From the IMG/VR virus record IMGVR_UViG_3300048642_000114, positions 1 to 20,156 of that record: a stretch of 20,156 bases of DNA; one strand, 5' to 3'. Below, one piece after another: positions 2,062 through 19,863 of the stretch. A model generated the notes under the pieces. That model was not told the origin of the DNA and did not search any database. It saw only the letters and a list, made by a program, of their open reading frames with translations. Each line of letters opens with the position of its first letter. The first letter of the stretch is position 1. Source of the DNA: a virus. The translations under genes were made by a program, and so were the position numbers.

Positions 2062-2098
2062 TTTACTGCCCCGTTTCTCGGATTTTTCCTGATGGTAA

Positions 2099-2128
2099 CC
2101 CAAGAAAAACCCCGCGCAAAGCGGGGTT
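2099..2128 (-). terminator. Rho-independent terminator of the creA-like gene
   Basis: AACCCCGC (2108-2115) and GCGGGGTT (2121-2128) form an 8-bp stem with a 5-nt loop. On the minus strand the stem runs into TTTTTCTTG, a proper U-tract. It lies 35 nt after the creA-like stop codon and before the transglycosylase start, so the two genes are separate transcription units. Confidence 0.85.
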
Positions 2129-2162
2129 CTAGCGCATGTGCGGCTTTACGCTGTTCAGCCGG

Positions 2163-2648: not shown

Positions 2649-2978
2649 CCAACCGAACGCACCACTGCGCCGAAGGTTCCGCCGGGTTGCAATCGCTGCA
2701 AGCGGCCCGGTGTGACCGGTGGCGCAGGCCGGGCGGCGCCAGACTGGCGACAAAGCCCTGTTCACCTGATGTCGACTGTCGAGCGCCTTTGCCTCCACGG
2801 TGCGGAATTTGCTGAATCCTGTCTGTGGGCCGCGCCAAGCAATCCTGACCCAATCATCGGGCATTTCCGACCTGATCCGGACTTTCAACGCGGGAAGCGC
2901 GTGGGTCCGCTTTGCGAGACTTTTTTGCCGTTCAATCAATGGAAACCAAAGCCCGGAACAAGCCGAAGGCGCCGGGCC

Positions 2979-3007
2979 ATCGCCTGCCCGCCCCTCGGGT
3001 AGGCGAT
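2979..3007. repeat. 12-bp stem-loop in the intergenic junction
   Basis: ATCGCCTGCCCG (2979-2990) pairs with CGGGTAGGCGAT (2996-3007) around a 5-nt loop, with one G-U wobble in plus-strand RNA. It has no strong T-tract on either side, so it is not a classical terminator. It is stable enough to be a structured RNA end or a boundary element. Confidence 0.4.
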
Positions 3008-3090
3008 TTGGTGAGGCTGGGTGTTCCCTCGTTAGGATTCATCAAAGCTGAGACATAAAGTGGCATGAACATAGGTCAGTATCGCCCACC

Positions 3091-3110
3091 CCGGGCAGGC
3101 GCTGGCCCGG
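3091..3110. repeat. Short GC-rich stem-loop
   Basis: CCGGGC (3091-3096) and GCCCGG (3105-3110) flank an 8-nt loop. No function can be assigned. Confidence 0.3.
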
Positions 3111-3115
3111 CTTGC

Positions 3116-3345: not shown

Positions 3346-3406
3346 TGAAATATGCCGCAAAACTGCGCCGTTGACTATCGCGCGGCCTCGCCATATCCGG
3401 CCGACC

Positions 3407-3610
3407 ATGTCAGAAACACCGCTCTTTCCGCCCAATGTGACGCACGTCGTGGTCCGGTGCTGGAATTGCAAAATGATCGCCCGCCTTGAGCGAAATGATT
3501 TGCTGGAAGGCGTTACAGTCTAAAGCCTGACCGACCGTGTGAAGTGCCAGGAATGCGGCGAGGGGATCCCCGACGTGACGCAGTTCCCTAGGCCGAGAAG
3601 CAGATGGTAA
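3407..3610 (+). pseudogene. Small zinc-ribbon protein gene interrupted by an in-frame TAA
   Basis: From the ATG at 3407 the frame encodes 38 residues, including a CWNC knuckle, and then hits TAA at 3521-3523. The same frame continues without another stop for 28 more codons, giving a second knuckle CQEC-G-E-G and ending at TAA 3608-3610. Two CxxC motifs about 30 residues apart in one frame are what a small treble-clef or zinc-ribbon protein of about 67 residues would show, so the internal TAA is best read as a nonsense mutation. Without readthrough the first product lacks half of the zinc site. Its origin (phage or chromosome) is unknown. GC content here is still high; the AT-rich island begins a little further on. 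Confidence 0.55.
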
Positions 3611-3819
3611 GGGCGGATTCCGGACGTTCGCTGCAGAGACACCCAAAACAACTGTACGCCAGAAAGCAGACATTCGTCTAATTGTGGCCTTCCACCTGAC
3701 GACCAGAACCTTGCTCAGCACTCTTCGCTTAGAACTTAGGTGCTCTGATTGTCTTGGCGGTTGTGGTGAAGTCAGCTAGAAGCAGCACAACAGCACTGCT
3801 AAAGGGAAGAAGTGAGCGA

Positions 3820-4989
3820 ATGATGCACTCTTTAGAAGATCAAGTTTCATCAGAAACTGACGAGATTGATGAAGAGGACGCCAGCTCTGGTATTGGCGTT
3901 GTCGAACCTTGGGACCCAAAGAAGATACGAATAACGACGAAACACTTTTCTCTTAGGGATGTCGTCGACCAAATTGAAGACCATGAGATTGATTTAGCAC
4001 CTGAATTTCAGCGTGACTACGTCTGGAAACAACGGCAAAAAACTAGGCTTATCGAGTCGATCTTATTGGGTATTCCACTGCCAGCGTTCTACTTCAACCA
4101 AACTCAGTTGGGGACATATCAAGTTGTAGATGGCGTTCAACGGCTCTCAACGATTAGTGCCTTTATGCAAAACGTGCATGTTCTTTCTGCGGGCGACTTA
4201 GAATACCTAGAAGATCTTGACGGCGCTAAATATGATTCCTTAGATCAGGCTGTTCTGCGACGCTTTAGAAGCACGCAAATCGTTGTTCACGTTATTGAAC
4301 CGCAGACCCCGGACGAAGTGAAATTCGAGATATTCAACAGGGTAAATACCTTGGGGAGTCCATTATCTCCTCAAGAAATTCGGCACGCTATGGGAAAGAA
4401 GAGGTCACGAGCATTCTTGAATGATCTCGTCAGCTTGAGCCATTTTGACGCGGCGACGGAAAAGTATTTTTGGAAAAAAGAAGAAGGTGAACTGGTACGT
4501 AACAGCCGCAGAATGACGGATAGAGAGCTCGCGCTTAGATTTTGTGCGTTCTTCAGCTTTACCGAAGAGAGCTATCGTAAACACCCTAGCCTGGATCGGT
4601 TCCTTATCGAGTTCCTTAAAAGAGTGGATGATCCTTCGCACCAAGATTTTCTAAGCGATAGTGAGCTTGACCATCTCAAACGCAATTTTGAAAACTCTAT
4701 GAAGATAGCTCACTCTGTGATGGGCAAAGCTGCTTTCAGGCGTTGGCCAGTCGTGGCGAAGAGACGAGGGCCTGTCAACCGTGCGGTTTTTGAAGCGCAA
4801 GCAATAGCATTCGCCAAGTATTCGTTATCTGACGTTTTGCCTCACAAAGATGAAATAGCCAAAAAACTCAGACTGGCGTTTGACGATAACGAATATCTTG
4901 AAGCTGTCACAGTTAGTACCGGCTCCATTGCTCGAATTCGACATAGGCTTGATGAGACTCGAAGGATAGTCGAGGCTATTGTCGCATGA
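3820..4989 (+). CDS. DUF262-domain protein (GmrSD-N/ParB-like fold), first gene of a three-gene defence-like operon
   Basis: This 389-residue protein has the DUF262 (PF03235) motifs in order: PEFQRDYVW at 61-69, VVDGVQRL at 102-109 (the DGxQR nucleotide-handling motif, with Gln107 and Arg108), and FNRVNTLGSPLSPQEIRHA at 172-190. The N-terminal 30 residues are acidic. No HNH/DUF1524 nuclease domain follows; the C-terminal half is the helical extension seen in stand-alone members. I prefer the ATG at 3820, with purine-rich AAGGGAAG upstream; an in-frame TTG at 3754 would add 22 residues. The stop overlaps the next start as ATGA (4986-4989), implying translational coupling. DUF262 domains occur in type IV restriction (GmrSD, BrxU) and in SspE, where they act in NTP-dependent DNA targeting. 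The role here is inferred from the family and context. Confidence 0.88.
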   Translation: MMHSLEDQVSSETDEIDEEDASSGIGVVEPWDPKKIRITTKHFSLRDVVDQIEDHEIDLAPEFQRDYVWKQRQKTRLIESILLGIPLPAFYFNQTQLGTYQVVDGVQRLSTISAFMQNVHVLSAGDLEYLEDLDGAKYDSLDQAVLRRFRSTQIVVHVIEPQTPDEVKFEIFNRVNTLGSPLSPQEIRHAMGKKRSRAFLNDLVSLSHFDAATEKYFWKKEEGELVRNSRRMTDRELALRFCAFFSFTEESYRKHPSLDRFLIEFLKRVDDPSHQDFLSDSELDHLKRNFENSMKIAHSVMGKAAFRRWPVVAKRRGPVNRAVFEAQAIAFAKYSLSDVLPHKDEIAKKLRLAFDDNEYLEAVTVSTGSIARIRHRLDETRRIVEAIVA

Positions 4990-6101
4990 TAAATTCAATC
5001 CGAGTAAAAGGATTTAAACCGTATGTTGATGAGCGAATGGAACTATCGCCATTGACAGTGTTAACTGGAATGAATGGTTCAGGGAAAACCTCACTACTTC
5101 AGGCCATCTTTCTTGCATGTAGCGCGGCGAGGACCGACGAGAAATCCGTAGGTTTGAACGGTCCATTTGGTCTGGAACTCGGCACCGCAGGGGATGTTCT
5201 AAATAGAAACAGCCAAAGTCCTATCGAGATATCTACTACTGATAAAGAGGCCGCAAAATCAGTGTGGAGATTTGATGTGCCTTCTGAATCTGCGCTCTAT
5301 TTGAATATTACGGAGCATCCACCGGAAAAACCTCAAGCATTCTTGGGCAGGACTCGCGCCTTTACATATTTAAGCGCGGAGCGGCTGGGGCCACGGGGAG
5401 CTTCGCAAACATCCATGTTGCCCGAAGACGAGTTGGAAGTAGGCATCCAAGGTGAATTCTCTGCTCACTTGTTAGCTGTTCTCGGTGATCGCCCAATGCA
5501 AAGTACAGATCGTCGTCACCCCAATTATTCGGAAAAGGCTCCTCGGTTGTTGAAGTACGAGGTTGAACAATGGTTATGTGAGATAGCCCGTCCGATAGAA
5601 GTGAATGGTGAACGGCAACCGGGATCCATGGTTGCGGGTCTTTGGTATCGAACACCTGGGTCTGAATGGGTTCGGTCTACCAACATGGGATTTGGCATCA
5701 CATACGCCCTGCCTATTATTTTGGCGGGTTTGGTCGCCGTTGAAGGTGGCATATTGGTAGTCGAGAACCCAGAAGCTCACTTGCATCCCGCTGGTCAGTC
5801 TAGGATGGGAGTTTTTCTCGCGTGGTTGGCTGGAAAAGGTGTGCAAGTCATCGTGGAGACTCATTCTGATCATATCCTAAATGGAATGCGTCGAGCGATT
5901 GCACAGCATTCATACATTTCGGCTGATTCATCGATCTTGCACTTTTTTTCTCAAAGTGAAGATGATGAGTTTGGAACAAACTCGGTTCCACTTCGATTTG
6001 AAGCGAATGGAAGTGTTTCGAGTTGGCCAAAAGGCTTTTTTGATCAGTACCAAATTGATGTAGCTACGCTTGGGCAGCTTAGACGCCGGAGCCAGATTTG
6101 A
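4986..6101 (+). CDS. AAA/ABC-type ATPase with C-terminal DUF3696
   Basis: This 371-residue protein belongs to the SMC/RecF-like predicted ATPases. It has Walker A GMNGSGKTS at 28-36, the family block YLSAERLGPRG at about 128-138, an ABC signature-like region NMGFGITYALPI at 233-244, Walker B GGILVVENPEAHLHP at about 254-268, and the H-loop ETHSDHILNG at 291-300. The C-terminus carries the DUF3696 signature WPKGFFDQYQID at 347-358. All catalytic motifs look intact. The length is typical for a two-lobed ATPase head without a long coiled coil and without an OLD-type Toprim domain. It overlaps both neighbours by 4 bp (ATGA upstream, TTGA downstream), so all three proteins are probably made together. 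The likely role is an ATP-driven sensor or motor of the complex. Confidence 0.9.
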   Translation: MINSIRVKGFKPYVDERMELSPLTVLTGMNGSGKTSLLQAIFLACSAARTDEKSVGLNGPFGLELGTAGDVLNRNSQSPIEISTTDKEAAKSVWRFDVPSESALYLNITEHPPEKPQAFLGRTRAFTYLSAERLGPRGASQTSMLPEDELEVGIQGEFSAHLLAVLGDRPMQSTDRRHPNYSEKAPRLLKYEVEQWLCEIARPIEVNGERQPGSMVAGLWYRTPGSEWVRSTNMGFGITYALPIILAGLVAVEGGILVVENPEAHLHPAGQSRMGVFLAWLAGKGVQVIVETHSDHILNGMRRAIAQHSYISADSSILHFFSQSEDDEFGTNSVPLRFEANGSVSSWPKGFFDQYQIDVATLGQLRRRSQI

Positions 6102-7090
6102 CTTTCATAGTTGACGGTCAGGACTGGCAATTCGATGGTCTTTCTGATGATCAAGTCAGAGCTGAAATTGACAAAGTCCTTGAGTTTGTTGCGATCTCAA
6201 ACGCTCGAGATCAACGTGTTCTTATAGGAGACGATTTTCAAACACGTGAGATGATGGCAGGTCTTGGGCTTTGGGAGTTGCTAGGTCCCAATGCGCAAAT
6301 AGAAATTTCTGGAGAGGTATGGCAGGAATTAGCAGCGTGGTTGGGGCCAAACCCGCTTTACACCATTTTAGATGATTGGCCGGATCAACTTGATGATACA
6401 GTTATCATCGGTAACGAACCGCCAGTTGAGAATGCTGACATTGCTTGGGCGCATCATCACAATCGGGCGTGCAGGGCTACTGCGTGTTTTTCATTGACGA
6501 GACACGGTTCCATAACGACTGAAACTGCCCACGGAACCTCAGATGTTCACTTTGTACGAAACGAGAGACAGTGTGCGGACTTTTGGCGGGACGCAATTGT
6601 GCTAGAGGGCGATACCTCCGACACTCTTTTCCGCATTTATGAGAAAGCTTACCCAAATCTCTACTTTCATAACGCTGTCATCTTTGCCGTAAACCAACTT
6701 GACGGCGGTTATGACGCATCTCGGCATCTAGTGCGCTCAGCACTTGCGACACTCGACGATCACGCCGGTTGGATATTCAACCGACCGCCGCCGACACTCG
6801 GTGTTAATGATGCTTTTGACGCAACCGCAGAGCAACAACCGACCAACCAGATCGTTATCGACCGATTTAGAGGTGTGGGTCTCGTCGTCGCACCGGAAAA
6901 TCCTGATGTGTTCCAAAACCGGCCTTGCCGAGAGGCCCGCGAAATTAACATCGATGGACGCCAACTCTATTGCCACTGGCACGTTAAGATCGAACCTCAT
7001 AGGAACAGAATCCACATCCATCCACCAGTTCCTGAATCCTCAGGTCGAGTAGTCATAGCGATTATACACGAGCACCTTCCCTTGCCGTAG
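6098..7090 (+). CDS. Uncharacterised 330-aa protein, third gene of the defence-like operon
   Basis: I do not recognise this family. It starts at a TTG (6098) that overlaps the ATPase stop as TTGA; the coupling and low GC match its two neighbours, which supports a real gene. The protein is soluble, with no signal peptide or membrane segment, and rich in His and Trp. Visible landmarks are a region around 40-100 with LIGDDFQTREMM and EVWQELAAWLGP, an AHHHNRAC cluster near 118-125, and a compact C-terminal module at about 277-330. That module has the pattern CHWHVKIEP, NRIHIHPP and VVIAIIHEHLP, that is, alternating His/Arg on beta strands. The spacing is loosely reminiscent of RelE/HigB-like folds, a weak inference only. 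It is a candidate effector or specificity subunit because the other two genes cover only nucleotide handling. Confidence 0.8.
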   Translation: MTFIVDGQDWQFDGLSDDQVRAEIDKVLEFVAISNARDQRVLIGDDFQTREMMAGLGLWELLGPNAQIEISGEVWQELAAWLGPNPLYTILDDWPDQLDDTVIIGNEPPVENADIAWAHHHNRACRATACFSLTRHGSITTETAHGTSDVHFVRNERQCADFWRDAIVLEGDTSDTLFRIYEKAYPNLYFHNAVIFAVNQLDGGYDASRHLVRSALATLDDHAGWIFNRPPPTLGVNDAFDATAEQQPTNQIVIDRFRGVGLVVAPENPDVFQNRPCREAREINIDGRQLYCHWHVKIEPHRNRIHIHPPVPESSGRVVIAIIHEHLPLP

Positions 7091-7755: not shown

Positions 7756-8469
7756 TCACGCCTCGTTGATGCTGGATGCCTCGGCAGAGGTCATCGCGGG
7801 GAGACCAGGTGCGGGCAGCGGATAACTCAAAGGCCAGCGCCAGGACGCAGGCACAAAGCGGTTCTTGTCGATCGGCACGACGCAGACGCGGTTTTGCTGA
7901 TTGCCGCCCAGGCAGTAGATGCGGTGCGCGTCCTCACCCACGGCAAACGCGACGTGGCCGCCCCCGTTGCGGGTGATCGAGATCACGGCACCGACTGTGG
8001 GCTTGCAGGGCTGGCCAAACTCGCGCCAGTTCAGCGCCCAATAGGGGTTGCGCGCCAGGTCGCCGGTGAACCGTTCCTGCGGCAGCGATAGGCGGATGCA
8101 GGTTTCCACGAAGTCGCCGCACCAGGGGAACCGGGACGGATCACCCAGGGCATGCCCATCGCTGGCCAGCCAGCGGCGCAGAATGCCGTTGTCGCGGCCC
8201 TCGTGCAGCCCCATGCGCTTGTACCCCTCGGCCAGCCAGGGAACCGGCGCGGTGGTGACGGGTGTTTCAGGGGGTTCCCGGCGATGCAGCGCGGCCCAGG
8301 TCAACGGCCCCACGTAGTCACGGGCACGAAACCCGATCGAGCGCTTGAACGCGATGATCGCAGCTGAGGTCCGCGACCCTTTCAGGCCGTCAATCGGGCC
8401 GGGATCGAACCCGCGCTTTTTCAGGGCGATCTGGATGTCGCGGGTGCGTTCGGAGTATTTCAACGGCAT
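7756..8469 (-). CDS. Endolysin: PG-binding domain + TIGR02594/CHAP-like cysteine peptidase
   Basis: The protein is 237 residues. An N-terminal peptidoglycan-binding repeat (about 8-60: IQIALKKRGFDPGPIDGLKG, then FKRSIGF and GPLTWAALH) is followed by a TIGR02594-type papain-like domain. The catalytic set is visible: Cys117 in PWCGDF, His172 in GGGHVAF and Asn190 in LGGNQQN. The start at 8469 was chosen over the in-frame ATG at 8487 because GGGGAA sits correctly upstream of it. No signal peptide is present, so it needs the adjacent holin to reach the cell wall. An intrinsic terminator lies just upstream (8485-8509), so its expression may be partly uncoupled from the tail genes. A short inverted repeat GAGGCG/CGCCTC straddles its stop codon. 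Confidence 0.88.
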   Translation of the reverse strand: MPLKYSERTRDIQIALKKRGFDPGPIDGLKGSRTSAAIIAFKRSIGFRARDYVGPLTWAALHRREPPETPVTTAPVPWLAEGYKRMGLHEGRDNGILRRWLASDGHALGDPSRFPWCGDFVETCIRLSLPQERFTGDLARNPYWALNWREFGQPCKPTVGAVISITRNGGGHVAFAVGEDAHRIYCLGGNQQNRVCVVPIDKNRFVPASWRWPLSYPLPAPGLPAMTSAEASSINEA

Positions 8470-8483
8470 GGCGTTTCCCCAAT

Positions 8484-8509
8484 GCAAAAGGCCCGCGCGA
8501 TGGCGGGCC
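8484..8509 (-). terminator. Rho-independent terminator inside the late operon, upstream of the lysis genes
   Basis: GGCCCGC (8490-8496) and GCGGGCC (8503-8509) form a 7-bp GC stem with a 6-nt loop. Read on the minus strand the stem is followed immediately by TTTTGC. It sits between the coiled-coil membrane protein gene and the endolysin gene, where readthrough would be needed for co-transcription. Confidence 0.6.
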
Positions 8510-9000: not shown

Positions 9001-9846
9001 TCACAGCCCGTAGCGACTGGCCACATAGGCCCGCAGCAGTTCCAGCGTGTCCGCCATGCCGCCGTCCAGCAGGTGACCGGTTCCGAACACCATATCCGCC
9101 AGGTCAAAATTTGTATGGATCGTGCCGCCGGTGCCAGCCGCATTGATCGCGCCATTGATCCGGCGGGTGGTTTGCGCGTTCGCGGCCCCCGCTTCGGTAT
9201 CGGTGGACCAAACAATGCCGTCCGTCGAGATTGCCGCCGTGGCGGCAGAGGCATCCCAGGAGAAATAGACCAGGCCCCATTCGCCTATCACAAGGTCGGT
9301 CTCCACAACCGCCTCTGGGATGGCAGCGCCAGCAGGTGCAACCAATCCCCCCCCAACTGTGAACCGCCAGACCCCGCCGTCACTCGCCTGCAGCAGATGT
9401 GTGCCGCCAATGGGGTCGCCTGCGGACACCTGCCCGCCCGCCACGTTGCGCAAACCGGGATTGTCCTCATCGACATTCAGAACCATCAGTCCCCAGAAGT
9501 CCGACGCGGACAGGCCCTCCACCAAAAAATGATCCTCATTGGCTGATCCGTGCTGTGTGGCGGGCTGGCCAAAGGGCGCAGTCGAGACGCCTTCCGCCAG
9601 ATACGCGGGACGGCGGATCACGGTATCCTGCGTCAGCGCCGCGCCGCCCTTGCGGTTGGCGATGGATGCTACCTGATTGTCAATGACGGTTGTGATATGA
9701 GACGTTCCTGCTGTCAGGATTGGCGTGTGCCAGCGGGTGATATTGGCATCAGCGGCAAATGCGTCTCCGAAACTCGGGACAATCGGGTCATAGATCGACC
9801 CGGCGGCGGCGGCGATGGTGATGCCTGGTGCTTTGAGATTGGACAT
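9001..9846 (-). CDS. Tail-associated lectin-like (LamG/ConA-type) protein
   Basis: This 281-residue protein has no signal peptide. It is rich in Gly, Ala and Thr, with beta-strand character. The second half has features of a concanavalin-like jelly roll: WGLVYFSWDAS, a central DGIVWSTD, and a terminal LELLRAYVASRYGL of the kind that closes many LamG-like domains. It lies directly after the tail-fibre gene, 14 bp away, with a good RBS (AGGAG at 9854-9858). An accessory receptor-binding or fibre-capping role is therefore likely, but this is inferred from fold impression and position only. Confidence 0.7.
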   Translation of the reverse strand: MSNLKAPGITIAAAAGSIYDPIVPSFGDAFAADANITRWHTPILTAGTSHITTVIDNQVASIANRKGGAALTQDTVIRRPAYLAEGVSTAPFGQPATQHGSANEDHFLVEGLSASDFWGLMVLNVDEDNPGLRNVAGGQVSAGDPIGGTHLLQASDGGVWRFTVGGGLVAPAGAAIPEAVVETDLVIGEWGLVYFSWDASAATAAISTDGIVWSTDTEAGAANAQTTRRINGAINAAGTGGTIHTNFDLADMVFGTGHLLDGGMADTLELLRAYVASRYGL

Positions 9847-9860: not shown

Positions 9861-12758
9861 TTAGGCCGGGTTGGCGTCAGAGATGAAGGCCCAATCGACA
9901 AGATTGCGGCCGGGTTCGGAAAGGCTGGGGGTGGTGTCCTGATTGCGGATGTTGCCCCATGCGCCAGAACGCCCGCCGGGCTTGCTCACCGGGCCGGTGT
10001 AGGCATAGCGCAGATAGGGCGTGACGGTTGGCGCGCCGGAAAGCGTCAGCTCGATCTTGTTCTGATCGGCTGTGTCACCGGGCAGGATGTCGATTGCGTC
10101 GATGGTTTCACTCTCGCCCACCAGTTCGAAGCCCCAGCCAGGGGCCTGCGGCAGCGTCGTGGTGTCCACAACCAATTCGCTGCCCTGATTGTAGAACGGC
10201 ACCGTGATGGTGCTGCCATCGACCACAAGCGGCCCCGCCGGGCGCACGCCCGTCCAGGTGCCGCCGCTCTCCACGATCCGCTTGACCTTGGCATTGTATT
10301 CGCGATGGACGGCATAGGCCAAAGGCGTCGGGTGAATTTCGTCCACATAGGGCAGAAAGTACCAGGGCGCGGTCAGATAGATGTCGCCGGGGTTTTCGGT
10401 CATCAGATCAAGCTGCGACAGCGACACCTGCCGTCCGTCATTGTCCTCGGACGGGGCTACCTGATCCATCCAGACGGTCACCGGATCATCGCCAAGGTTT
10501 TGCCCGGTGATCGCCGCGATGTCCGACAGATATTGCGTGCGCAGCGCGATGAACAGGTCGATGTATTCCTGCCTGGTCTTGCCGCCATCGGCCTGCCCCT
10601 GCGACCAGTTCCAATCGCGCACGATGATGTTGCGGCCATAGATGGCAGCAACATCCTTGATCCGCTGCAGGGTGATAAGCCCGTTCAGATACGAATTGCT
10701 GCCGGTGTCATCCAGATCGGTGATCGAGGCCCCGCCTTGCCCATGCGAGTACCAAACCCGCGTGATGTTTGGCAAGCCCGCCGCCTGCTCGGAGCGCCGG
10801 AGGAAACGGGCGCAGGCCGGGAAGCCCGTCTCACCACCGTAGAACGGCGACACTTCGGACCATTCGGTCGAGACACAGGGCACCAGGTCGGTGATCGCGC
10901 TGCCGTCAACCAGCTGCGCACCGGTCGAGATCAGACCCGTGCCCGGCTCGGTCGTGATCGGCATCAGGTCATGGTGAGGTGTCAGCGCGTCCTCTGTCAC
11001 AATAGTTGGGAGTTCCAGCGCGTTGGTGTCCGACCCACCGCCGCCGGTCGTATAACTCTGGCCATAGATCGTGACCACTTCGACCGGCCCGCGTGTCTCT
11101 GCCATCGCGCAGCCGGGCGTCACGTCACGGCGAAGAAAATACCGCCGGTTCACGCCTGTTTCATCTGGGCCGCGCGCGGTGAAAAGCGCGGCATTGTGGA
11201 TCTTCACTTCTTCAGGGTCTGCCAGCAGACCGACAGGAACCGCCGACAGGTCCAACGCCCGCTTGGTCTCAAATGTGTAAATTGCCTGATCAGAAAGCGT
11301 CAGCCGCAGGCCGTCCGCATCTGCACCCATGAGCAGCGTCTTGCCATCACCCGCGTAGAGGATCGGCTTGACCACCGCGTAATCACCGCTGGCATCAGGC
11401 GCGGGCAGGATCGCCCCGCCGAACACCATGCGCGCAAAATACGCGGCCAGCGCCGCCCCGTCATACCCCATGAAGGTCGCACCACCGGACCCGCGCAGGA
11501 TCGGCGTGATGCCACCCGCATAGTCGCCGTGGCTGTCCCCCTCAATGGTTGCTTGACGAAACGTGAAGCCGGTTGCCCCGACCCACGCGCCCAGCCGTCC
11601 AGCCGCATCGGCCATGCCCGCCCCGTAGACAAAGGCCACCAGATCGGGGTCCATATTCAGAACAGCCGCGACCTTGGCGTGCTCGGCCCGCTCCATCAAC
11701 GGCGCATCCAGCGCCGCCGGGGTCACGGCCTTCGCGCTCTCAGTGCCAAGACGCACATCCGCCTCGACTGCCGCCGTGACGGTTACCGAAGGGGATGCAC
11801 CCAGGTTGCCGCCTGTCACGGCCAGACCGCCACCGGTCAGGGTCTGGGACTTTTCCGCTTTGGCATCCAGCGCCGCCTGCTGCGGCCCGCTAACCGGCTT
11901 GTCGGCATCGGCCGTGTTGTCCACGCTGCCCAGCCCGACATCCGATTTAGCCAAATTGACTGCACCGGTCTTGCTGTTCACTGAAAGAACTTGCGGAGTG
12001 TAGTCTTCTTTGAACCAATCCGTGCCAAACGTCGTGTCGCTGGCATCATCCACGAGGGCCAAGATTCTGTCGCCAACAGTGAACTCTACGCCATCAACAG
12101 TGCCAGCATCAGAAACAATCCACTGATACCCCGCTTGAGCTGATCCAGATCCCGGAAAGACGCCTAACGACGCATCCCACGCACCTTGCAGCACGATTGC
12201 GGCATCCAAAGCGTTAACGCGTGCATCCAAGGACGTAAGCTCGGCCTGCAACCCCACGACCGTCCCGATTTCCTGGGTGCCGGTATGGTTGGCCCGACTC
12301 AGCAGATTCTCGTCGGTATCGTTCGCTGTCGCGCCGTCGTCCACACCCGCCAACTTCGTCCGCTCTGCCGCCGTCATAACCTTGGTATCGGCGCCCTCCG
12401 TCAGGTCATCGGCGCTGCCCGTGGACGCAATGTCGGCGAGCGCGTCAATGGCCGCGAGAGCGCCAACAAGATCCGTGAACCCAGCCGGAAGTTCCGAAGT
12501 CTTCACCCATGTGTCAGTCTGGTACTGATAGACACCATTCAGCGATGGTGTGGTGTCATCCAGCACAAACCCGGTATCCAGATCGGCGGGACTGGTCGCG
12601 TCGAGATTGGCTTTTGTGTCCGCAAAATACAGCGCGCCGTTGAGTGCGCCCTGCGTCTGCATTTCCCGGAGAAGTTGGGCAAGTTCGCTGTTCTTGACCT
12701 GATGCGTCGGAGACACGGGATCGCCTTCGACAACCGCCGTAACGGATTTAGCCACCAT
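9861..12758 (-). CDS. Phage tail fibre/spike with C-terminal SGNH (SASA-like) esterase domain
   Basis: This 965-residue protein is modular. The N-terminal part (about 1-360) is tail-fibre-like, with the common phage motifs LTEGADTKVMTAAERTKLAG (about 119-138), an SRANHTGTQ block, and VNSKTGAVNL through DVGLGSVDNTADADKPVS (about 260-290). A linker of about 200 residues follows. The region at about 560-830 has the layout of a carbohydrate esterase of the SGNH/sialate O-acetylesterase type: nucleophile block YGQS with Ser568, an SHGQGG element (671-676), WNWSQGQADGG (716-726, the counterpart of the family's W-x-QGE block), and a DEIH motif (806-809) giving the Asp-His pair. A beta-rich tail of about 130 residues ends the protein. 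The likely function is recognising and deacylating host surface polysaccharide during adsorption. An AAGGA RBS precedes the ATG. Confidence 0.85.
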   Translation of the reverse strand: MVAKSVTAVVEGDPVSPTHQVKNSELAQLLREMQTQGALNGALYFADTKANLDATSPADLDTGFVLDDTTPSLNGVYQYQTDTWVKTSELPAGFTDLVGALAAIDALADIASTGSADDLTEGADTKVMTAAERTKLAGVDDGATANDTDENLLSRANHTGTQEIGTVVGLQAELTSLDARVNALDAAIVLQGAWDASLGVFPGSGSAQAGYQWIVSDAGTVDGVEFTVGDRILALVDDASDTTFGTDWFKEDYTPQVLSVNSKTGAVNLAKSDVGLGSVDNTADADKPVSGPQQAALDAKAEKSQTLTGGGLAVTGGNLGASPSVTVTAAVEADVRLGTESAKAVTPAALDAPLMERAEHAKVAAVLNMDPDLVAFVYGAGMADAAGRLGAWVGATGFTFRQATIEGDSHGDYAGGITPILRGSGGATFMGYDGAALAAYFARMVFGGAILPAPDASGDYAVVKPILYAGDGKTLLMGADADGLRLTLSDQAIYTFETKRALDLSAVPVGLLADPEEVKIHNAALFTARGPDETGVNRRYFLRRDVTPGCAMAETRGPVEVVTIYGQSYTTGGGGSDTNALELPTIVTEDALTPHHDLMPITTEPGTGLISTGAQLVDGSAITDLVPCVSTEWSEVSPFYGGETGFPACARFLRRSEQAAGLPNITRVWYSHGQGGASITDLDDTGSNSYLNGLITLQRIKDVAAIYGRNIIVRDWNWSQGQADGGKTRQEYIDLFIALRTQYLSDIAAITGQNLGDDPVTVWMDQVAPSEDNDGRQVSLSQLDLMTENPGDIYLTAPWYFLPYVDEIHPTPLAYAVHREYNAKVKRIVESGGTWTGVRPAGPLVVDGSTITVPFYNQGSELVVDTTTLPQAPGWGFELVGESETIDAIDILPGDTADQNKIELTLSGAPTVTPYLRYAYTGPVSKPGGRSGAWGNIRNQDTTPSLSEPGRNLVDWAFISDANPA

Positions 12759-12782: not shown

Positions 12783-15413
12783 TTAAGGTACGAACAGGTC
12801 GTGCGGGCCGTCGGGCGTTCCGGCGACACCGGAGATCGCGATTGGAACAACCCAGAAATAGCCCTGATCGAGTTCGACTGATGCTGCGGTTTCGCGCACA
12901 ACGAAGACGTTATCGACATTGCCAGCCCAGCCAGCGTCACTGACCACGGACACGGCGGTCAGGTTGTCAGGTGCCACCTTCAGGCGGCCCTTGGCCTGGT
13001 CGGAGTTTGCACCCATATCGACATCGGTATCGCCCTCGAGGCGAACGAGAACAGTGCCGCCGGAAGAGCCTGTAATCACCATCGACACGCGCAACTCGGT
13101 GCCAACTGCGATACCACTGACGGCCTGCGTCATGCTGTCCTCTACGCCGGACGCCGCCGTGTCGCTGGCAACGCCGGACCCGATGGACCAACCGCCGCCG
13201 AGTGTCCAGGCGGAGCCATCGTCGAAGCCCCCGTTCTCAACCTCGTTGACCGCAGTGGCATCACCCGCAATCACGTCGAAATCGTCCGACGGGTTGCCAT
13301 CCAGGACGCTGCTGATCGGCACGGCGTCGGCGAAGTCGGTTGTATCGCTGCGGTAGATCCTGACGCCGATATGATTGGCATCAGAGCTTGCCGTCCCTGT
13401 TGCTCGGACACGACCGGGTTCCGCCGTCATTGTCACGCCGGTAAGGTCGCCGACGGGACTGTCATCCGCAATTGCCTGAATGGTCAGAACAGTCTCCCCA
13501 CCACCGACATCTGCGGCCCACTCGGTCGCCCTGCCGCCCCCGGCAACTGTCTGCCATTGCACGTCAAATGTTGCGCCATCAGGAACGATTGCTGAGTGGG
13601 CCAGCAATTCCTCCATATCGACCGTGAAATATTCATAGACAGTCTGTCCCGTGAGGGCATAGCGGAAGCGGAACACCCGATCCGGGCGCGATGGCGCATC
13701 GAATGACGCTGCGAAGCGGACAGCGGCACCCACAGACGTTTGCACCGGCACAGCGGCGACGGTCACGTTTGCGGCAATCTCCAACGTGTTGTCGATGTCC
13801 AGGATCGGTGTCGGCGCAGGTGGCGGGCCCTCTTCCCCTTCACCTAGATCAAACCGATCTGCCTGCATCGGCACCGCCGCGAATGCGCAAGCCTGACCAC
13901 TGGCATCCTCCTCCACGTCGGTGATGATCTCGAAATCACCGGTGAAAGTGTCGTCCCATTCGATGTTCACATTGCGCTTGTTCTTGGCAAGGATACCCTT
14001 GATGCTGGTGCCGAACGCGGCGCGCTTTGTTGGCGCTGATCGCAGCCCGAAGTTCTTTGCCAGCCGCACCGCCTGATTGTGGTTCTGACATCCGGCAATC
14101 GTGATTTTTTGATAGTTCGGCTCGCTGACCCCATCATAGTAGTTTGGGTTTTGCCAAGGCGCTGCTGGCTGTTTCGTATAACCGTGCTCGGGCGAAAGGT
14201 ACTCCACGATCACGCCATCAATTGCAACCTCGCCATCGTCGATTACCTGCGTCTCTGCGGTAATGATGTCCCGCTCGGCTGTGAAGGTCAGTGTCGGGGC
14301 CTCATATACGCCTCCGTTCGCATAGGCGCGACCCTCATCATCATAGGCCACGAACCCCGCGAAAGTGTTCAGGATTTCCCGTTCGCATTCATGGCGGGGC
14401 TTATTGTCTGGGAACGCCACACCGCAACGATATCGCGGGATCGGGCTGCCAGACCGGTCAAGGACCGTTGCATCGAAGGTATCGGCCCGCGCGGCAACCT
14501 CCGTCCAGTTGATTTCCGACATAGGCCGGTCGCGGCCGCGCGAATTTGTGCGGAACCAAGCCCAAATGATTTCCGGGTTACCATCCGAGAATGTCCATGT
14601 GTCCGGGTCATTGATGTCGTGACCAATTTCGCGCGGATCATACATCCGGCTGAAGTTGCCGTAGACCGTCACGGAAGGCTCACCAAGACCAAGCGCCCCA
14701 CGGAAACGGTAGACCTTGCCGTAGTTGGCCAGTGGGACAGCCCGACCCTTGATGATGGAATAGGACACACCGGTCAGAAAGAAGTCTTCGGGCAGATCTG
14801 GAAAGGCGTCGGTGAAAGCGGTGGGCTTGATTCCGTAAGGCGATGACGCGTCTGGAGAGACCGTGAAAATCTGCCAGTTAAGCGTCTTTGTGCCAGTGCC
14901 ATCATACTGATCGTCACGCTCTTTGGAGCAGAACTGATCCGTGGTCACGTAACCGTCCACATCGAGCGCGACCTCTATCCCGTCAAGGAAATAAATCGGA
15001 TCAGATTCCAACTCGCAATCCGCGTGTGTCACGATGTACCAAAGCTGACCGGCCTCGTCATACTCAGCAAAGCATCCCAACTCACCGCCGATAAGGCACG
15101 AACCTCCCGCTTGCCAGCGAGGCGCGTCGTTGAGCCTGGTGTTGACCCGCGCCGCCTCGATGCTGGGCGCAGATGGCCGTGAAAGCGCTGACAGCGCGGC
15201 GCTCACGCCGATGTTCAACAGCAGCGACCCCACCGTTCCGGTCAAAAACGTCCCGACTGCAAATATGCCGGGATAAAGCGCAGAGGCCACCGCCGCCGTC
15301 GTGGCTGTTGTGAAGCCCAGACCGGCAAAAAGTGCGGTGATCGGGTCGGCCGCTGCCGTAGTCGGCATGACAATGGCTGTACTGATCAGCAGCAGCGTTT
15401 TCAAATTGACCAT
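12783..15413 (-). CDS. Large phage tail-tip/host-specificity protein (gpJ / GTA gp15-like position)
   Basis: The protein is 876 residues when started at the ATG at 15413, which has AAGGTG upstream; an in-frame ATG at 15446 would add 11. The N-terminus looks like a signal peptide (NLKTLLLISTAIV, then Ala-Ala-Ala-Asp), followed by an Ala/Gly-rich hydrophobic segment to about residue 80. The middle has tail-hub-like text such as WTEVAARADTFD, RHECEREILNTFAG and GDFEIITDVEEDASGQACAF. Residues about 720-840 look like a CBM4/9-type jelly roll (ENGGFDDGSAW, then GTELRVSMVITG and VRLEGDTD). It overlaps the DUF6950 gene by 13 bp and is followed by the fibre gene, matching the adsorption-apparatus position in siphovirus and GTA clusters. 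Confidence 0.8.
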   Translation of the reverse strand: MVNLKTLLLISTAIVMPTTAAADPITALFAGLGFTTATTAAVASALYPGIFAVGTFLTGTVGSLLLNIGVSAALSALSRPSAPSIEAARVNTRLNDAPRWQAGGSCLIGGELGCFAEYDEAGQLWYIVTHADCELESDPIYFLDGIEVALDVDGYVTTDQFCSKERDDQYDGTGTKTLNWQIFTVSPDASSPYGIKPTAFTDAFPDLPEDFFLTGVSYSIIKGRAVPLANYGKVYRFRGALGLGEPSVTVYGNFSRMYDPREIGHDINDPDTWTFSDGNPEIIWAWFRTNSRGRDRPMSEINWTEVAARADTFDATVLDRSGSPIPRYRCGVAFPDNKPRHECEREILNTFAGFVAYDDEGRAYANGGVYEAPTLTFTAERDIITAETQVIDDGEVAIDGVIVEYLSPEHGYTKQPAAPWQNPNYYDGVSEPNYQKITIAGCQNHNQAVRLAKNFGLRSAPTKRAAFGTSIKGILAKNKRNVNIEWDDTFTGDFEIITDVEEDASGQACAFAAVPMQADRFDLGEGEEGPPPAPTPILDIDNTLEIAANVTVAAVPVQTSVGAAVRFAASFDAPSRPDRVFRFRYALTGQTVYEYFTVDMEELLAHSAIVPDGATFDVQWQTVAGGGRATEWAADVGGGETVLTIQAIADDSPVGDLTGVTMTAEPGRVRATGTASSDANHIGVRIYRSDTTDFADAVPISSVLDGNPSDDFDVIAGDATAVNEVENGGFDDGSAWTLGGGWSIGSGVASDTAASGVEDSMTQAVSGIAVGTELRVSMVITGSSGGTVLVRLEGDTDVDMGANSDQAKGRLKVAPDNLTAVSVVSDAGWAGNVDNVFVVRETAASVELDQGYFWVVPIAISGVAGTPDGPHDLFVP

Positions 15414-15781
15414 GAACGGAGCACCTTTGCCGGTAGTTCGATGCACCCGCGTTCTGTGATGAACGCGCAGCGCTTGCCTAGATCGACGCCTGCGATTTGT
15501 TTTCCCATGATGTCTGCCACGACCGGACGGCCATGGGCCCTGTCGCCGCGCTCAAAGCCCGCCAAGGCCATGCCGTAGTCAAACAGCGCCAAGACTCCAC
15601 CATGAGCCTCGTAGATGGCCCTGGCGCCTTCTTCGTCGCTGTATGACCCACGCCAAGGCGCTGCGGGGTCGATGCCTGTTCTGTGCAGCACGTGGTCGCA
15701 GGTCGCCATGATGCAATCGCTCACACCCCAGATCAGCTTTGCCCGACGCCAGCGGTCGAGCGTGTCAGCCACCGACGACAT
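15401..15781 (-). CDS. DUF6950-family tail protein (NlpC/P60-like position)
   Basis: The protein is 126 residues. It has WGVSDCIMATCDHVLHRTG at about 18-36, then AAPWRGSYSDEEGA, and a HGRPVVADIMG segment at about 82-92. This matches the pattern of small DUF6950 phage proteins that occupy the place of the tail-tip NlpC/P60 peptidase in alphaproteobacterial phages and GTAs. Cys23 in SDC could be a peptidase-like cysteine, but I do not see a confident full catalytic triad. It overlaps both neighbours (17 bp upstream, 13 bp downstream), consistent with tight coupling. It starts within the preceding gene and has no strong RBS. Confidence 0.75.
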   Translation of the reverse strand: MSSVADTLDRWRRAKLIWGVSDCIMATCDHVLHRTGIDPAAPWRGSYSDEEGARAIYEAHGGVLALFDYGMALAGFERGDRAHGRPVVADIMGKQIAGVDLGKRCAFITERGCIELPAKVLRSWSI

Positions 15782-16445
15782 AGGTCCGGTTCGAATTGGA
15801 GGCGACGAAGCTGCATCCGCTGTCGCTTTCGACCCCCGCCAGCCGCGCCCTTTCCCGTTGGGCTGTATCGGTCATGGTCCCGCTAGGCACCCGCGACCGT
15901 CCATATTCCAGCGACCGCGCCAGAACCGACACCGATCGGATGCGCTCTAACTTTCCGCCTTCCGCTCGCACGCCCTCTGAAAATGTCGGTCCGCGCATCC
16001 GCATCCGCCATGCGAAACGGATTGGTGTTTGCGGCAAAAGGCCTTCATCACCCTTGATCAAGGCGTGGTAGCAAATGATGTCGCGACCCTTTGCCAGATC
16101 CTGATCGGCCTTAATCAACTGATAGGATTCGGCGTCCAAATAGGGGATCCCGAAGGTGTAGCGCGGGCTGTTCCCCTCGCGTGAATCCTTTACCGCCGGA
16201 ACCTTGTGCAGGTTCGCGCCAGATGCATCGAATGTTCCCAGCCATTCATTCGCGGCCAGCACGCCTGCCGGTGTCTCGACTGCATCACCGACGCTGAGGG
16301 TTGTGGCCAGTACGCCGTGACCTTCCCAAAGCCGCACCGGAAACCCGTCGAAGTCGTAGAAAAAACAGCGCCGAACCATCGCCTTGATGTCGAAGCTATC
16401 CGCAGCCGTTCCGGTCATTTCCAGAAGCTCGCTTTCGAAGCTCAT
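15765..16445 (-). CDS. Phage tail protein, GTA hub-like position
   Basis: The protein is 226 residues and soluble. I recognise it by context rather than by motif: it is the second gene after the tape measure protein, where RcGTA-like clusters carry the hub protein. Visible features include FFYDFDGFPVRLWEGHG (about 28-44), a YTFGIPYLDAESYQLIKAD stretch and an RIRSVSVLARS region. The ATG overlaps the upstream gene's stop by 4 bp, and GAGG sits 7 nt upstream. A structural baseplate role is inferred. Confidence 0.65.
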   Translation of the reverse strand: MSFESELLEMTGTAADSFDIKAMVRRCFFYDFDGFPVRLWEGHGVLATTLSVGDAVETPAGVLAANEWLGTFDASGANLHKVPAVKDSREGNSPRYTFGIPYLDAESYQLIKADQDLAKGRDIICYHALIKGDEGLLPQTPIRFAWRMRMRGPTFSEGVRAEGGKLERIRSVSVLARSLEYGRSRVPSGTMTDTAQRERARLAGVESDSGCSFVASNSNRTYVVGG

Positions 16446-17143
16446 ACTAAAGCCTCAACGAATTGCGCCCGATTGAACTGCATGTGTCGTCCCGATTGGA
16501 ATTGACTCATCACCTCGCGGGCGTTGATGCAGGTGACCAGGGCCGTCGGGCGGAACAGGAGCCGATCATCGGTGGTCAGCGCACGACGAATGGGGGGTGA
16601 CACGGCAATGGTCGCTATGTCCTCGTCGTCATACTCGATGTCCATGACGACATGCACGAAGTCGTAGCCTTCCAGATGAAACCCGATGACATGCCCGATT
16701 TCCAGTACCCGGCCATAATCAGAAAGTTCGGCCTTCATAGACCCGGCACCTTTTGACGCAGCAGCCGCCACGGGGACGCTTGGGTTCCAGGACCAGTAAG
16801 CCCCGCTATCCCATGGCAGATCGTTGTCCCATGGGATGCCGTCCGTCTCAGGGCCGTCCAATGCGTCATCAGAAACAAGCTGAACTGAGTTGTAGAGCGG
16901 CACCCGCATGACGGCCCCGTTCTGGATACGACTGATCGTCCAGGAGGCATCAAGGTTGGCCTCGCGTGTCGCGAAAACGGCGAAAGACATGAAGACTTCG
17001 TAGCGCCCGCCTGGTTCCGGGTTTTCAATTGACGCACCACCAATGGTCATCCCACCCGGGATAGCTTGCCCGGCTGCCCGAACTTCTTGCGTGATCGGCG
17101 CGCACCCCCTGCGCCATTCATATATTTTTGGAACATATACCAT
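16442..17143 (-). CDS. Phage tail protein, distal-tail-like position
   Basis: The protein is 233 residues, Trp/Asp-rich in the middle (GIPWDNDLPWDSGAYWSWNP), with beta-rich flanks and no membrane segment. It is the first gene after the tape measure coding region, the usual place of a distal tail protein in siphoviruses and of gp12 in RcGTA; its length is similar. Its ATG shares one base with the upstream TGA (TGATG at 17141-17145). The family was not identified with confidence, so the function is inferred from order. Confidence 0.65.
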   Translation of the reverse strand: MVYVPKIYEWRRGCAPITQEVRAAGQAIPGGMTIGGASIENPEPGGRYEVFMSFAVFATREANLDASWTISRIQNGAVMRVPLYNSVQLVSDDALDGPETDGIPWDNDLPWDSGAYWSWNPSVPVAAAASKGAGSMKAELSDYGRVLEIGHVIGFHLEGYDFVHVVMDIEYDDEDIATIAVSPPIRRALTTDDRLLFRPTALVTCINAREVMSQFQSGRHMQFNRAQFVEALV

Positions 17144-17667
17144 CAGGAGAGAGATCCATCTGTTTGATGCTGTGAGGTGTAATTGCCCCAGTTGGTCTTT
17201 ATGTGCTGGATGGCTTGGGAGGCACCTTCCTGCGCGGCCTGCCCGCCAACAGATTTGACGTAGGCTTTGATTTTTCCTTCGTCATCCACAGTCACGCCAA
17301 CATCAACCCGAACGTTCTGAGCTGAGTTGCGACCATCCAGCCTGCGCGCTGTATCCTGCCGTGATGTCACCACCGCCCCCAGCGGCGTCGATTTCACAAG
17401 TTCAGGCCCCTTCTCGCCCACGATCCCCGTCTGCCCCTGCCCAATGGTGCCGCCTGAGTCGAACAGACCACCGAAAAGGCCCTTGAAGATGAGGGTGCCC
17501 AGACTGTCGGATGACGATCCACCTTCCACGGACGCAAGCAGTTTCGCCTTTGAGTACGCCACGACCAATTCCTTGATCAGGTCGCCAACCACGTCCGTCA
17601 GGCTTCCGGTGCCGTCGATCAGCTTGTCGATGGCAGAACCGCCTGCCTTTTCGAACTCACCCCACAT
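17143..17667 (-). CDS. C-terminal part of the tail tape measure protein, separated by an in-frame stop
   Basis: From the ATG at 17667 this encodes 174 residues. It has the typical end of phage tape measure proteins: a Gly/Phe-rich segment FKGLFGGLFDSGGTIG and GIVGEKGPELV, then a charged tail. It is in the same frame as the 717-residue N-terminal part, and the 14 codons between the TAA (17710-17712) and this ATG are open, so the two were one gene of about 906 codons. AAGGGA lies 10 nt before the ATG, so separate initiation is conceivable. On its own the fragment would lack the length-setting helical region. Confidence 0.75.
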   Translation of the reverse strand: MWGEFEKAGGSAIDKLIDGTGSLTDVVGDLIKELVVAYSKAKLLASVEGGSSSDSLGTLIFKGLFGGLFDSGGTIGQGQTGIVGEKGPELVKSTPLGAVVTSRQDTARRLDGRNSAQNVRVDVGVTVDDEGKIKAYVKSVGGQAAQEGASQAIQHIKTNWGNYTSQHQTDGSLS

Positions 17668-17709
17668 ATCCGAGGCGTCCCTTGCCGAGGCCGACGCTTC
17701 GTCAAATTT

Positions 17710-19863
17710 TTAGCGCGCAAGGTCATAGGCACGCGCCGCTTCGCCCACCGTGGCGTGACCGCTTTCCAGCGCCTTGTTTATCGTTTCCTGCGCCTCTTCG
17801 AATTCCTGCGTCGCGCGGATTACCGGATCGAGTGACGCCATCAGATTGTCGAATGCTTCAGCCGTTTCGTTCGCTGCCGTGGCGCCAGCCGACCCGCCGC
17901 CGCCACCACGACCAGACCGGGGGGGAGCGGTCAATCGACGGAAGTTCAACACCGCGCCTCTGTTCGTCTCACGCTGGCCGGCATCCGGGATGACCGGCTG
18001 CGACATAAGTAGGTCCTCGTCAGCCATGGCCGGGGTTGTCTGTGAAAGCTGCAAGGCAGTGGACAGCGCGATACCAAGCGCATCCGCAAGCTCATGAGCT
18101 GATGCCGCGGCGCCGCTGAATGATACACCTCCAGCGGCATTCGCAAGGCGGTCAGTGAAGGTGATCGTCGTGTCGATCTCGCCCGTCAGGGCTTTTTGAC
18201 GTTTCTCAAGCTCTGCAATGTTCGCCTCGATCTGTGCCAGCGCGGCGGCTTCGTCTTTCCGCAGCGCCTGACCTGACCGCAGGTCCGTCAAAAACTCCTT
18301 CTGACGATTCAGGACGGAAATCAGATAAAGCTCGGCGTCTTCCAGCGCATCAGTATCGCCAGCACCGATAGAGCGCAGTGCGTCTCTGGCGGTCTGCATG
18401 TCGCCCAAAATGTCTTGGTATGCCGCGCCCTGCATCGCCAGTTCAATACGCTGCGCCACCATGGCATCAACATCAGCGCGGCGCGCCCTGGCCTTATCAA
18501 GCTCAAGGCGGATCGTTTCCAAAGACATCGAGTTGCCGTTTTCAAGCGCATCCCGCAGGTAGTTTGATGCGTTGATCTGGTCACCCATGGCAATTGACGT
18601 GTTGTCGATGGCTGTTTCAAGCGCGGATTGCGCAAGCTCCGCCGTACTGATCGACCGGAACGTGTCCGTCAGGGATGTGATGTACCCACCAAGGACCGAA
18701 AAACTGGAAGAAACAGCCAAAGCCAAACGTGAAACAGCTTCCAGCGCTGGCACCACAAATGTCAGCAGGACATTGCCCAGACCAAGCGCGATATCCGTCA
18801 TCGCTGCTGTAGCCCGTGCCCATCTCTGATCGAGGCTGTCGGCCATCTTCCTGTAGGCCTCATCTGTGGCCCCGGCCTTGTCGGCCATCTGCTCATTGAT
18901 CGCCGCGAACTTCTCGCCCGCGCCCCCGGCAAAGGCCAACACCGCGTTCAGAGCTTCGACCGACCCGAACAGTTCGGCCATGGCCTCTTGGCTGCCGCCG
19001 GTCTTGTCGATCACATCTTCCAGGAACCCGGCAAGTCCCTTTGATTTTAGCGCCTGCGCATCGAATGAGAGCCCCAGCTTGGCTGCCATCTTTTCCGCTT
19101 CTGATGTGGGCTTGATTACCCCGGAAATCACCTGCCGCAGGCCGGTGATGGCAACGCTGGTCGATTGACCTTGCGTTGTCAGTGCCGCCGTAGCCGCAAC
19201 CACTTCGTCAAAGCTCACGCCGACCGCGCTTGCAATCGGGACGATATTGCCCAGACCTGCCGACAGTTCCGCCGCCGTGGTTTTGCCTGCCTTAATCCCA
19301 ACGAAAAGCGCATCGGATGCGGCTGCCGCCGTCAGGCCGGAGGCCGCGTAAGCGTTGGTCGCCGTGGTCAGCGCGTCAACCGCTGTGGTGGTGTCGGTTG
19401 CACCACCGATGGCCAACTTATTGGCGCTTTCCAACAGGGTCGCGGCCTGTTCAACCGAACCAGCGCCAGCCGAGATGGCCTGATAAAAGCCCTCAACCTG
19501 CGATGTTGCGGAGCCTCCAAAGTCCTTGGCGAGTTGCCGGGCGCTGGCGGATAACCCGGACATCTCCGCATCCGTACCCCCGATCAACGTCGACGTTTCC
19601 GCCAGCGCTGCATTGAAGTCCCGCGCGAGATTGACCGACTGAGCCGCCGCTTGAAACGTGACATAAGACGCTGCGGCCGCACCCAAAGCTCGCGCAGCCT
19701 TGACGCCAAAAGCTGAGACGGATGACCCCATGCGGTTGGACGCCTGGTTCACGGTCGTTTCTGTCTCTCGCGCCTCGCGCTTCACCCGGTCAAGAGCTGA
19801 TTCCGCGCGCTTTCCACCCGTCTCCATCCCGGTCGGGTCGATTGCGAGTCTAAGTCCGGCCAT
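17710..19863 (-). CDS. Phage tail tape measure protein (TP901-type), N-terminal 717 residues, truncated by TAA
   Basis: The protein has the TP901 core tape-measure domain: an N-terminal coiled region with KREARETETTVNQ, then LARDFNAALAETSTLIGG, LAKDFGGSATSQVEGFYQAISAG split over about 115-135, a middle TSVAITGLRQVISGVIKPT, and LFGSVEALNAVLAFAGGAG near 290-310. A hydrophobic stretch at about 360-395 and long Ala-rich helices follow. This protein sets tail length and helps DNA ejection. It stops at TAA 17710-17712 after AYDLAR, but the frame reads on into the C-terminal fragment at 17667. The ancestral length of about 906 codons is normal for the family. No tail-assembly chaperone gene lies immediately upstream on this strand, which is unusual. 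Confidence 0.9.
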   Translation of the reverse strand: MAGLRLAIDPTGMETGGKRAESALDRVKREARETETTVNQASNRMGSSVSAFGVKAARALGAAAASYVTFQAAAQSVNLARDFNAALAETSTLIGGTDAEMSGLSASARQLAKDFGGSATSQVEGFYQAISAGAGSVEQAATLLESANKLAIGGATDTTTAVDALTTATNAYAASGLTAAAASDALFVGIKAGKTTAAELSAGLGNIVPIASAVGVSFDEVVAATAALTTQGQSTSVAITGLRQVISGVIKPTSEAEKMAAKLGLSFDAQALKSKGLAGFLEDVIDKTGGSQEAMAELFGSVEALNAVLAFAGGAGEKFAAINEQMADKAGATDEAYRKMADSLDQRWARATAAMTDIALGLGNVLLTFVVPALEAVSRLALAVSSSFSVLGGYITSLTDTFRSISTAELAQSALETAIDNTSIAMGDQINASNYLRDALENGNSMSLETIRLELDKARARRADVDAMVAQRIELAMQGAAYQDILGDMQTARDALRSIGAGDTDALEDAELYLISVLNRQKEFLTDLRSGQALRKDEAAALAQIEANIAELEKRQKALTGEIDTTITFTDRLANAAGGVSFSGAAASAHELADALGIALSTALQLSQTTPAMADEDLLMSQPVIPDAGQRETNRGAVLNFRRLTAPPRSGRGGGGGSAGATAANETAEAFDNLMASLDPVIRATQEFEEAQETINKALESGHATVGEAARAYDLAR

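Follow-up and report, generated by a model that had tools for sequence, protein, structure and literature searches.

The locus described here lies in a stretch of 20,156 bases from the virus record IMGVR_UViG_3300048642_000114 of IMG/VR (positions 1 to 20,156), hereafter the window, and centres on the tail fibre gene of a probable Sulfitobacter-type prophage, the C-terminal part of whose product is predicted to be an esterase of the SGNH class. Tail genes and a tail-tip gene precede the fibre gene, which is followed by a gene of 281 codons, a gene of 117 codons and an endolysin-like gene, in this order (Table 1). A preliminary description, made from the sequence alone, had read the gene as a tail fibre fused to an SGNH/SASA-type esterase; the conserved beta domain at residues 831-965 and the gene at 9001-9846, which we call the partner gene, are additions to that account.

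Table 1. Features of the fibre locus in window coordinates, listed in the direction of transcription of the fibre gene (ORF, open reading frame; aa, amino acids; dN/dS, ratio of non-synonymous to synonymous substitution rates; AF2, AlphaFold2)
Feature	Position	Strand	Basis
Tail genes: DUF6950 protein, two tail proteins, tape measure protein (interrupted)	15401..19863	-	Pfam/PHROG-type family matches
Upstream tail-tip gene, 887 aa	12783..15446	-	phrog_5616 tail fiber protein, E 1.3e-43
Tail fibre gene, 965 aa: stalk, predicted esterase and C-terminal beta domain	9861..12758	-	one uninterrupted ORF
Residues 1-375, putative phage-attachment and stalk part	11634..12758	-	phage tail family matches
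Residues 376-516, linker/neck region	11211..11633	-	common to the Sulfitobacter copy, dN/dS 0.19
Residues 548-830, predicted SGNH/SASA-type esterase domain	10269..11117	-	phrog_4201, AF2 model, fold searches, profile matches to solved esterases
Ser568 codon, predicted nucleophile, block I GQS	11055..11057	-	Ser in 26/26
Gln720 codon, block III W-x-Q-G	10599..10601	-	Gln in 24/26
Asp806-Glu-Ile-His809 codons, block V DxxH	10332..10343	-	His 26/26, Asp 22/26
Residues 831-965, predicted C-terminal beta-sandwich	9864..10268	-	conserved in the family and in the Pan3 tailspike (alignment A4)
Partner gene, 281 aa, predicted ConA/LamG-like	9001..9846	-	starts 14 bases past the fibre stop
Endolysin-like gene	7756..8487	-	PG_binding_1; CHAP match under its cut-off

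An AlphaFold2 model of residues 517-965, built from 26 sequences, shows the SGNH fold, a three-layer alpha/beta/alpha arrangement, followed by a C-terminal beta-sandwich (predicted local distance difference test, pLDDT, 73.4; predicted template modelling score, pTM, 0.80). Comparison of the model with solved structures had been named in the preliminary description as the check on the SGNH assignment, and both Foldseek and VIA-align 2 have SGNH carbohydrate esterases and phage tailspikes of the esterase type as their leading matches. The Pan3 tailspike leads (Foldseek E-value 4.5e-21; VIA Z 37.6, the alignment to 9vyh covering model residues 37-449), followed by the Xanthomonas acetylesterase XAC1771 (1.8e-12; Z 25.7), sialic acid esterases (1.4e-10 to 1.0e-8; Z 20.4-20.9), the Arabidopsis protein 2APJ (3.3e-6; Z 19.8) and the phage protein G7C gp63.1 (7.0e-5; Z 11.2). 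Fibre residues 559-960 match phrog_4201, a 'tail fiber protein' family (E 3.1e-39, profile positions 275-669 of 676) that occurs in 20 of 390 Rhodobacterales genomes versus none of 14 control genomes. A profile of 13 sequences finds the Pan3 tailspike (7.8e-24), 2APJ (3.4e-7) and the CE20 enzyme FI8 (6.5e-5) among solved proteins, while with a profile of 26 sequences both the GQS and the DxxH blocks align to the Pan3 tailspike; 2APJ aligns at the DxxH block, and its block I stretch gives only a weak, separate match. As far as the enzyme class is concerned, the fold and the aligned Ser and Asp-x-x-His blocks thus uphold the earlier assignment.

The motifs YGQS (565-568, with Ser568), WNWSQGQADGG (716-726) and DEIH (806-809), on which that assignment had been built, were all found at the positions given for them. 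Across an alignment of 26 sequences, comprising the window protein and 25 relatives, Ser568, His809, Gly566 and Gly721 are invariant, so that the motifs exceed what chance would produce; Gln720 is kept in 24 sequences, the Asp three positions before the His (Asp806) in 22 and Gln567 in 21. In a separate set of 14 sequences the Ser is present in 13 (the one other gene being truncated there), the His in 14 and the Asp in 11. Gln567 and Gln720 are both candidates for the oxyanion-hole glutamine, and Gly675/676 are present as candidates for the glycine of block II; enzymes of families CE6 and CE20 have Gln where SGNH enzymes otherwise carry Asn, and the Gln named in the account we draw on is that of the GQSNM motif (PMC12313940). 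It could be argued that the SGNH domain is catalytically dead and acts solely in glycan binding, since residue 722 is Gln in the window protein versus Glu in 20 of the 26 sequences (Ala, Thr and Val are also seen) and residue 569 is Tyr (5 of the sequences) instead of the Leu seen in 20. We consider this improbable: Ser568, His809, Asp806, Gln567, Gln720 and the block glycines are all kept in the window protein, and dN/dS for residues 517-830 is 0.11 against a Sulfitobacter copy differing by about 10% in DNA. The same single sequence pair gives 0.15 for residues 831-965 and 0.19 for the partner gene; the esterase, the C-terminal beta domain and the partner gene are under purifying selection.

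Our preferred reading, to which we assign a probability of about 0.82, is that the gene encodes the tail fibre of a probable Sulfitobacter-type prophage, ending in an SGNH O-acetylesterase that deacetylates host surface polysaccharide and accompanied by a ConA/LamG-like partner. The N-terminal part would attach the fibre to the tail and form the stalk, as its family matches suggest, and the C-terminal part would be a carbohydrate O-acetylesterase of the SASA/sialate-O-acetylesterase branch of SGNH enzymes followed by a beta-sandwich. His809 and Asp806 would activate Ser568, and the oxyanion hole would contain a glycine together with either Gln567 or Gln720. By analogy with characterised phage enzymes, O-acetyl groups would be removed from the host surface polysaccharide during tail docking, and the phage would recognise and traverse the glycan with its backbone uncut. 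Within the same receptor-binding unit, the partner would most likely serve as a second component that binds glycan or caps the fibre. The substrate is probably an O-acetylated surface glycan; from the same analogy we infer the two roles that the preliminary description had put forward, deacylation of capsule or O-antigen and control of host range. Precedents for such an activity are described in the sources cited: G7C gp63.1 takes the O3-acetyl off the O-antigen (as told in PMC13123978), Aristophanes gp41 removes O-acetyl from the K26 capsule, pretreated cells resisting the phage (PMC8471582), and two Klebsiella prophage SGNH fibres are active esterases on p-nitrophenyl acetate (PMC13123978).

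Several observations weigh against the preferred reading, besides the departure at residue 722. The activity of prophage depolymerases is, according to PMC13123978, not reliably predictable from sequence or predicted structure. The model is of middling confidence, with model residues 57-76 and 87-96, right after block I, below a pLDDT of 50, and the solved enzymes found share less than 20% identity with the fibre. For the fibre protein, Pfam gave nothing up to an E-value of 1, SASA (PF03629) included, and NCBIfam nothing up to 0.1; neither an integrase nor an attachment site was found in the window. The label 'SASA-type' accordingly holds through the relatives, 9 of 12 of which in alignment A1 match SASA with E-values of 0.1 or lower (the best being 2.1e-11), and not through a Pfam match of the window protein.

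A different target would be material that does not belong to the host surface, such as an exopolysaccharide matrix or algal polysaccharide, whose deacylation could aid virion diffusion. Sulfitobacter species associate with algae, and the position after the tail-tip gene is the usual site of receptor-binding proteins. The substrates of the solved cellular relatives are plant xyloglucan, xylan or sialic acids (PMC12313940), which speaks for such a target; yet the esterase is part of the fibre, its gene comes immediately after the tail-tip gene, and capsule or O-antigen is what characterised phage enzymes with this fold act upon in the accounts of PMC13123978 and PMC8471582. We hold this alternative to be slightly less probable even than a dead enzyme. 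Our literature search found no paper combining Sulfitobacter with phage, O-acetyl and tail fiber.

The assignment to a host relies on the flanking DNA. Positions 1-3114 of the window share 95.9% identity with the terminal part of a Sulfitobacter sp. DFL-14 contig, and the flanking host lytic transglycosylase is 99% identical to that of the same strain, the best match among 62 Sulfitobacter genomes, in agreement with the marine-type bacteria suggested beforehand. Because host DNA adjoins phage genes, we regard the element as a probable prophage, hosted by a marine bacterium of the Sulfitobacter type. The fibre recurs at 100% identity in two more IMG/VR records, complete in one (L002, in which 5 of 12773 bases differ from the window) and as residues 1-593 in the other (L003), where the match stops close to the locus end; in a single-sequence scan of viral contigs the sole match, L017, was a second copy of L002.

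Two copies of the locus were found in Sulfitobacter. That of strain DFL-14 (L076) matches the fibre from residue 376 onward together with the complete partner gene. A recombination point or swapped module at residue 376 was ruled out: a run of 10 N at L076 7476-7485 directly precedes the match and shows the boundary to be an assembly gap. In the second copy, L077, the sequence begins at a contig end. Towards the N-terminus, several phage tail families, including phrog_20500, 13892 and 30593, match the stalk at residues ~103-367, and residues 118-305 share 37-40% identity with minor tail proteins of Rhizobium phages. The genome of strain DFL-14 holds two further fibre genes with this stalk (51-55% identity), at L090 4620-8246 and L091 3718-7223. 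The former is a single ORF that continues into a BNR_2 (sialidase-like) domain; in the latter the BNR_2 part is a separate ORF behind an N run within the fibre.

The partner gene of the window is predicted to encode a ConA/LamG-like protein. Its product has no Pfam match of its own at E up to 1, Laminin_G_3 included, and is homologous to the partner at another locus (L097; blastp 4.7e-8, 25% identity over 243 residues), which matches Laminin_G_3 with 28.2 bits versus a curated cut-off of 27.6. The AlphaFold2 model of the window partner has a pLDDT of 49, and its fold matches were used for the broad class alone: they include pentraxins, CBM40, galectins and LNS domains, and the 50 matches listed are mostly jelly-roll lectin or ConA-like proteins with a few viral spike chains. 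Against alignment A6, which collects the partners of other esterase fibres, with the window sequence excluded, hhalign gave a probability of 0.3 and an E-value of 0.17; an apparent relation at E 6.5e-30 was discarded, the alignment having included the window partner itself. The window partner was likewise not among the matches of hidden Markov model searches with the main partner family, and a link to the Acinetobacter and Vibrio partners was not shown.

A gene of this size recurs behind related esterases. In 11 of 13 annotated loci an ORF of 239-301 aa starts where the esterase gene ends; in the other two, a 492-aa tail protein takes that place (PY6) or a further gene intervenes (Ideonella). 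The viral set comprised 56 IMG/VR loci, which, after six with less than 300 residues of frame had been dropped (L054, L055, L056, L058, L072, L073), were dereplicated to 25. An ORF of 230-300 aa lies no more than 150 bases downstream in 20 of these, and no more than 45 bases downstream in 19; of the remaining five, 3 bases remain in L057 and 689 in L068, L040 carries a related ORF that differs in length, and L059 and L067 have none. BLAST links join 98 of 231 pairs of downstream neighbours (22 of the 25 loci have such an ORF) versus 11 of 190 pairs of upstream neighbours, taken as the control (20 of 25). A profile of 16 partners matched 51 ORFs in the 80 loci searched, profile members included and 15 repeat or short-piece loci being skipped; every one stands beside an esterase gene, in loci selected via the esterase, so that a partner may also occur elsewhere without one. 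Five of ten partners scanned match Laminin_G_3 with an E-value no higher than 0.013, and one of the five exceeds the cut-off.

The picture is thinner in the Rhodobacterales, for which 25 loci were compared (23 from the phrog_4201 genome search and two others). A directly downstream ORF of 230-300 aa is present in 12, and in 11 after the exclusion of L096, the first residues of whose 234-aa ORF read as a short-chain dehydrogenase. These 11 include two copies of the window gene and two nearly identical members that share a single genome; the downstream genes of L105 and L088 were rejected as partners, being host-like on reading, and in L114 only 586 bases remain. The pairing is strong among close members of the esterase family and weaker among distant members, some of which resemble host enzymes. 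Separately, Acinetobacter-like esterase genes are split into two frames in four viral records (L054-L056, L058), which may reflect decay, phase variation or sequencing error, and one lineage may underlie several of them.

The slot right after the fibre gene is also typical of tail fibre assembly proteins. That the downstream ConA-like gene encodes such a factor, or merely an adjacent minor tail protein that does not work with the esterase, comes close to an even chance. Two BNR-type fibres of Sulfitobacter (L090, L091) are also followed by genes of 296-298 aa, 87% alike, with one weak match to Laminin_G_3 (0.0024); the arrangement is therefore not tied to the esterase, and the two-gene plan may be general to enzyme-bearing fibres. 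A role in assembly or as a mere neighbour would also suit the presence of a partner-sized gene in only 11 of 25 Rhodobacterales loci and the failure to connect the window partner with the main partner family, whereas the predicted lectin-type fold and the excess of links among downstream over upstream neighbours argue for a function tied to the esterase. More tentatively still, we propose that the esterase fibre and the ConA-like protein constitute a co-inherited receptor unit of two proteins ('shave and bind'), in which the esterase would trim acetyls and the partner would read or hold the trimmed glycan; the pair would be a cassette moving among phages of Acinetobacter, Vibrio, Klebsiella and Rhodobacterales that are otherwise unrelated, and BNR-type fibres of Sulfitobacter prophages would share the two-gene plan. 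Two Acinetobacter baumannii prophage esterases of this kind are reported to be 57% identical versus 14% for the capsid proteins (PMC12115436), which fits gene movement between phages. According to the available portion of PMC11058221, phages fLi-Aba02 and fLi-Aba03 each carry SGNH and ConA-like fibre proteins, and no general rule is drawn there; a pairing of esterase and ConA-like protein as a general rule was not found in our literature search.

Further features of the window were noted. The tape measure gene has an in-frame stop at ~17668-17712 (minus strand) that is absent from the near-identical L002, and the window copy may be decaying or contain a sequencing error. Between the lysis genes and host DNA, three genes at 3754-7090 (plus strand), encoding a GmrSD_N protein, an AAA ATPase and a third protein, match PADLOC NsnA (9.7e-114), NsnB (5.9e-100) and NsnC (1.9e-87) and are a candidate anti-phage defence system. 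A 221-bp stretch at 3388-3608 with 79.6% identity to L077 5235-5455, past the lysis genes of the second Sulfitobacter copy, is perhaps the prophage end.

With this locus, a phage of the Roseobacter group is added to those predicted to deacetylate, rather than cut, host glycans, a strategy recently described as widespread in Klebsiella prophages (PMC13123978). The finding is of an ordinary sort, though useful in its setting, and what most deserves further attention is the paired gene. If the partner works with the esterase, it would give a name to a little-studied second component of many predicted phage deacetylases, might bear on the frequent failure of single proteins in the laboratory, and would offer a two-gene handle for locating such enzymes.

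Among known systems, the nearest is the tailspike of the cyanopodophage Pan3 (PDB 9VYH), for which our search found no paper. Profile matches (7.8e-24 and 1.1e-20) run over the GQSLSIG block I, the D-x-x-H block V and the C-terminal beta domain, and the structural alignment reaches its Z of 37.6 across 393 residues; identity, however, is 18-19%, and phage type and host differ. The tailspike esterases of Acinetobacter phages (Phab24 gp164, fLi-Aba02 gp21, Bhz20, HD01) belong to the same family by alignment, with 26-27% identity, and are likewise followed by a related pair of downstream genes, but differ in stalk, hosts and phage types, and hhalign did not establish homology of their partners with that of the window. 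Published accounts describe Phab24 gp164 (PMC11126041) and the SH-Ab 15497 member (PMC11058221), which tblastn recovered as part of the family, as predicted acetylesterases with 7KMM as closest structure, and fLi-Aba02 gp21 as matching SASA and SGNH (PMC11058221). XAC1771/XacXaeA and other CE20 enzymes (7KMM, 9H4U, 9EGA) share the SGNH core with mammalian sialic acid esterases (8F9O etc.) and the window fibre (Z 20-26) and, judged from the aligned range, the C-terminal beta-sandwich. CE20 enzymes of the ancillary-domain type have an inserted beta-sandwich domain and a water-mediated DxH triad (PMC12313940), unlike the window protein, which has DxxH and, by length (~283 residues spanning blocks I-V), no such insert. 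The O-antigen deacetylase G7C gp63.1 (PDB 4QNL) and Aristophanes gp41 also carry an SGNH domain on a tail fibre, both with the mode of action proposed here; 4QNL, for all its fold match, is absent among the matches listed for the 13- and 26-sequence profiles, and the published model of gp41 is based on the peptidoglycan O-acetylesterase 4K7J (PMC8471582). Phage deacetylases of this sort are known; their recurrent pairing with a downstream gene is less so.

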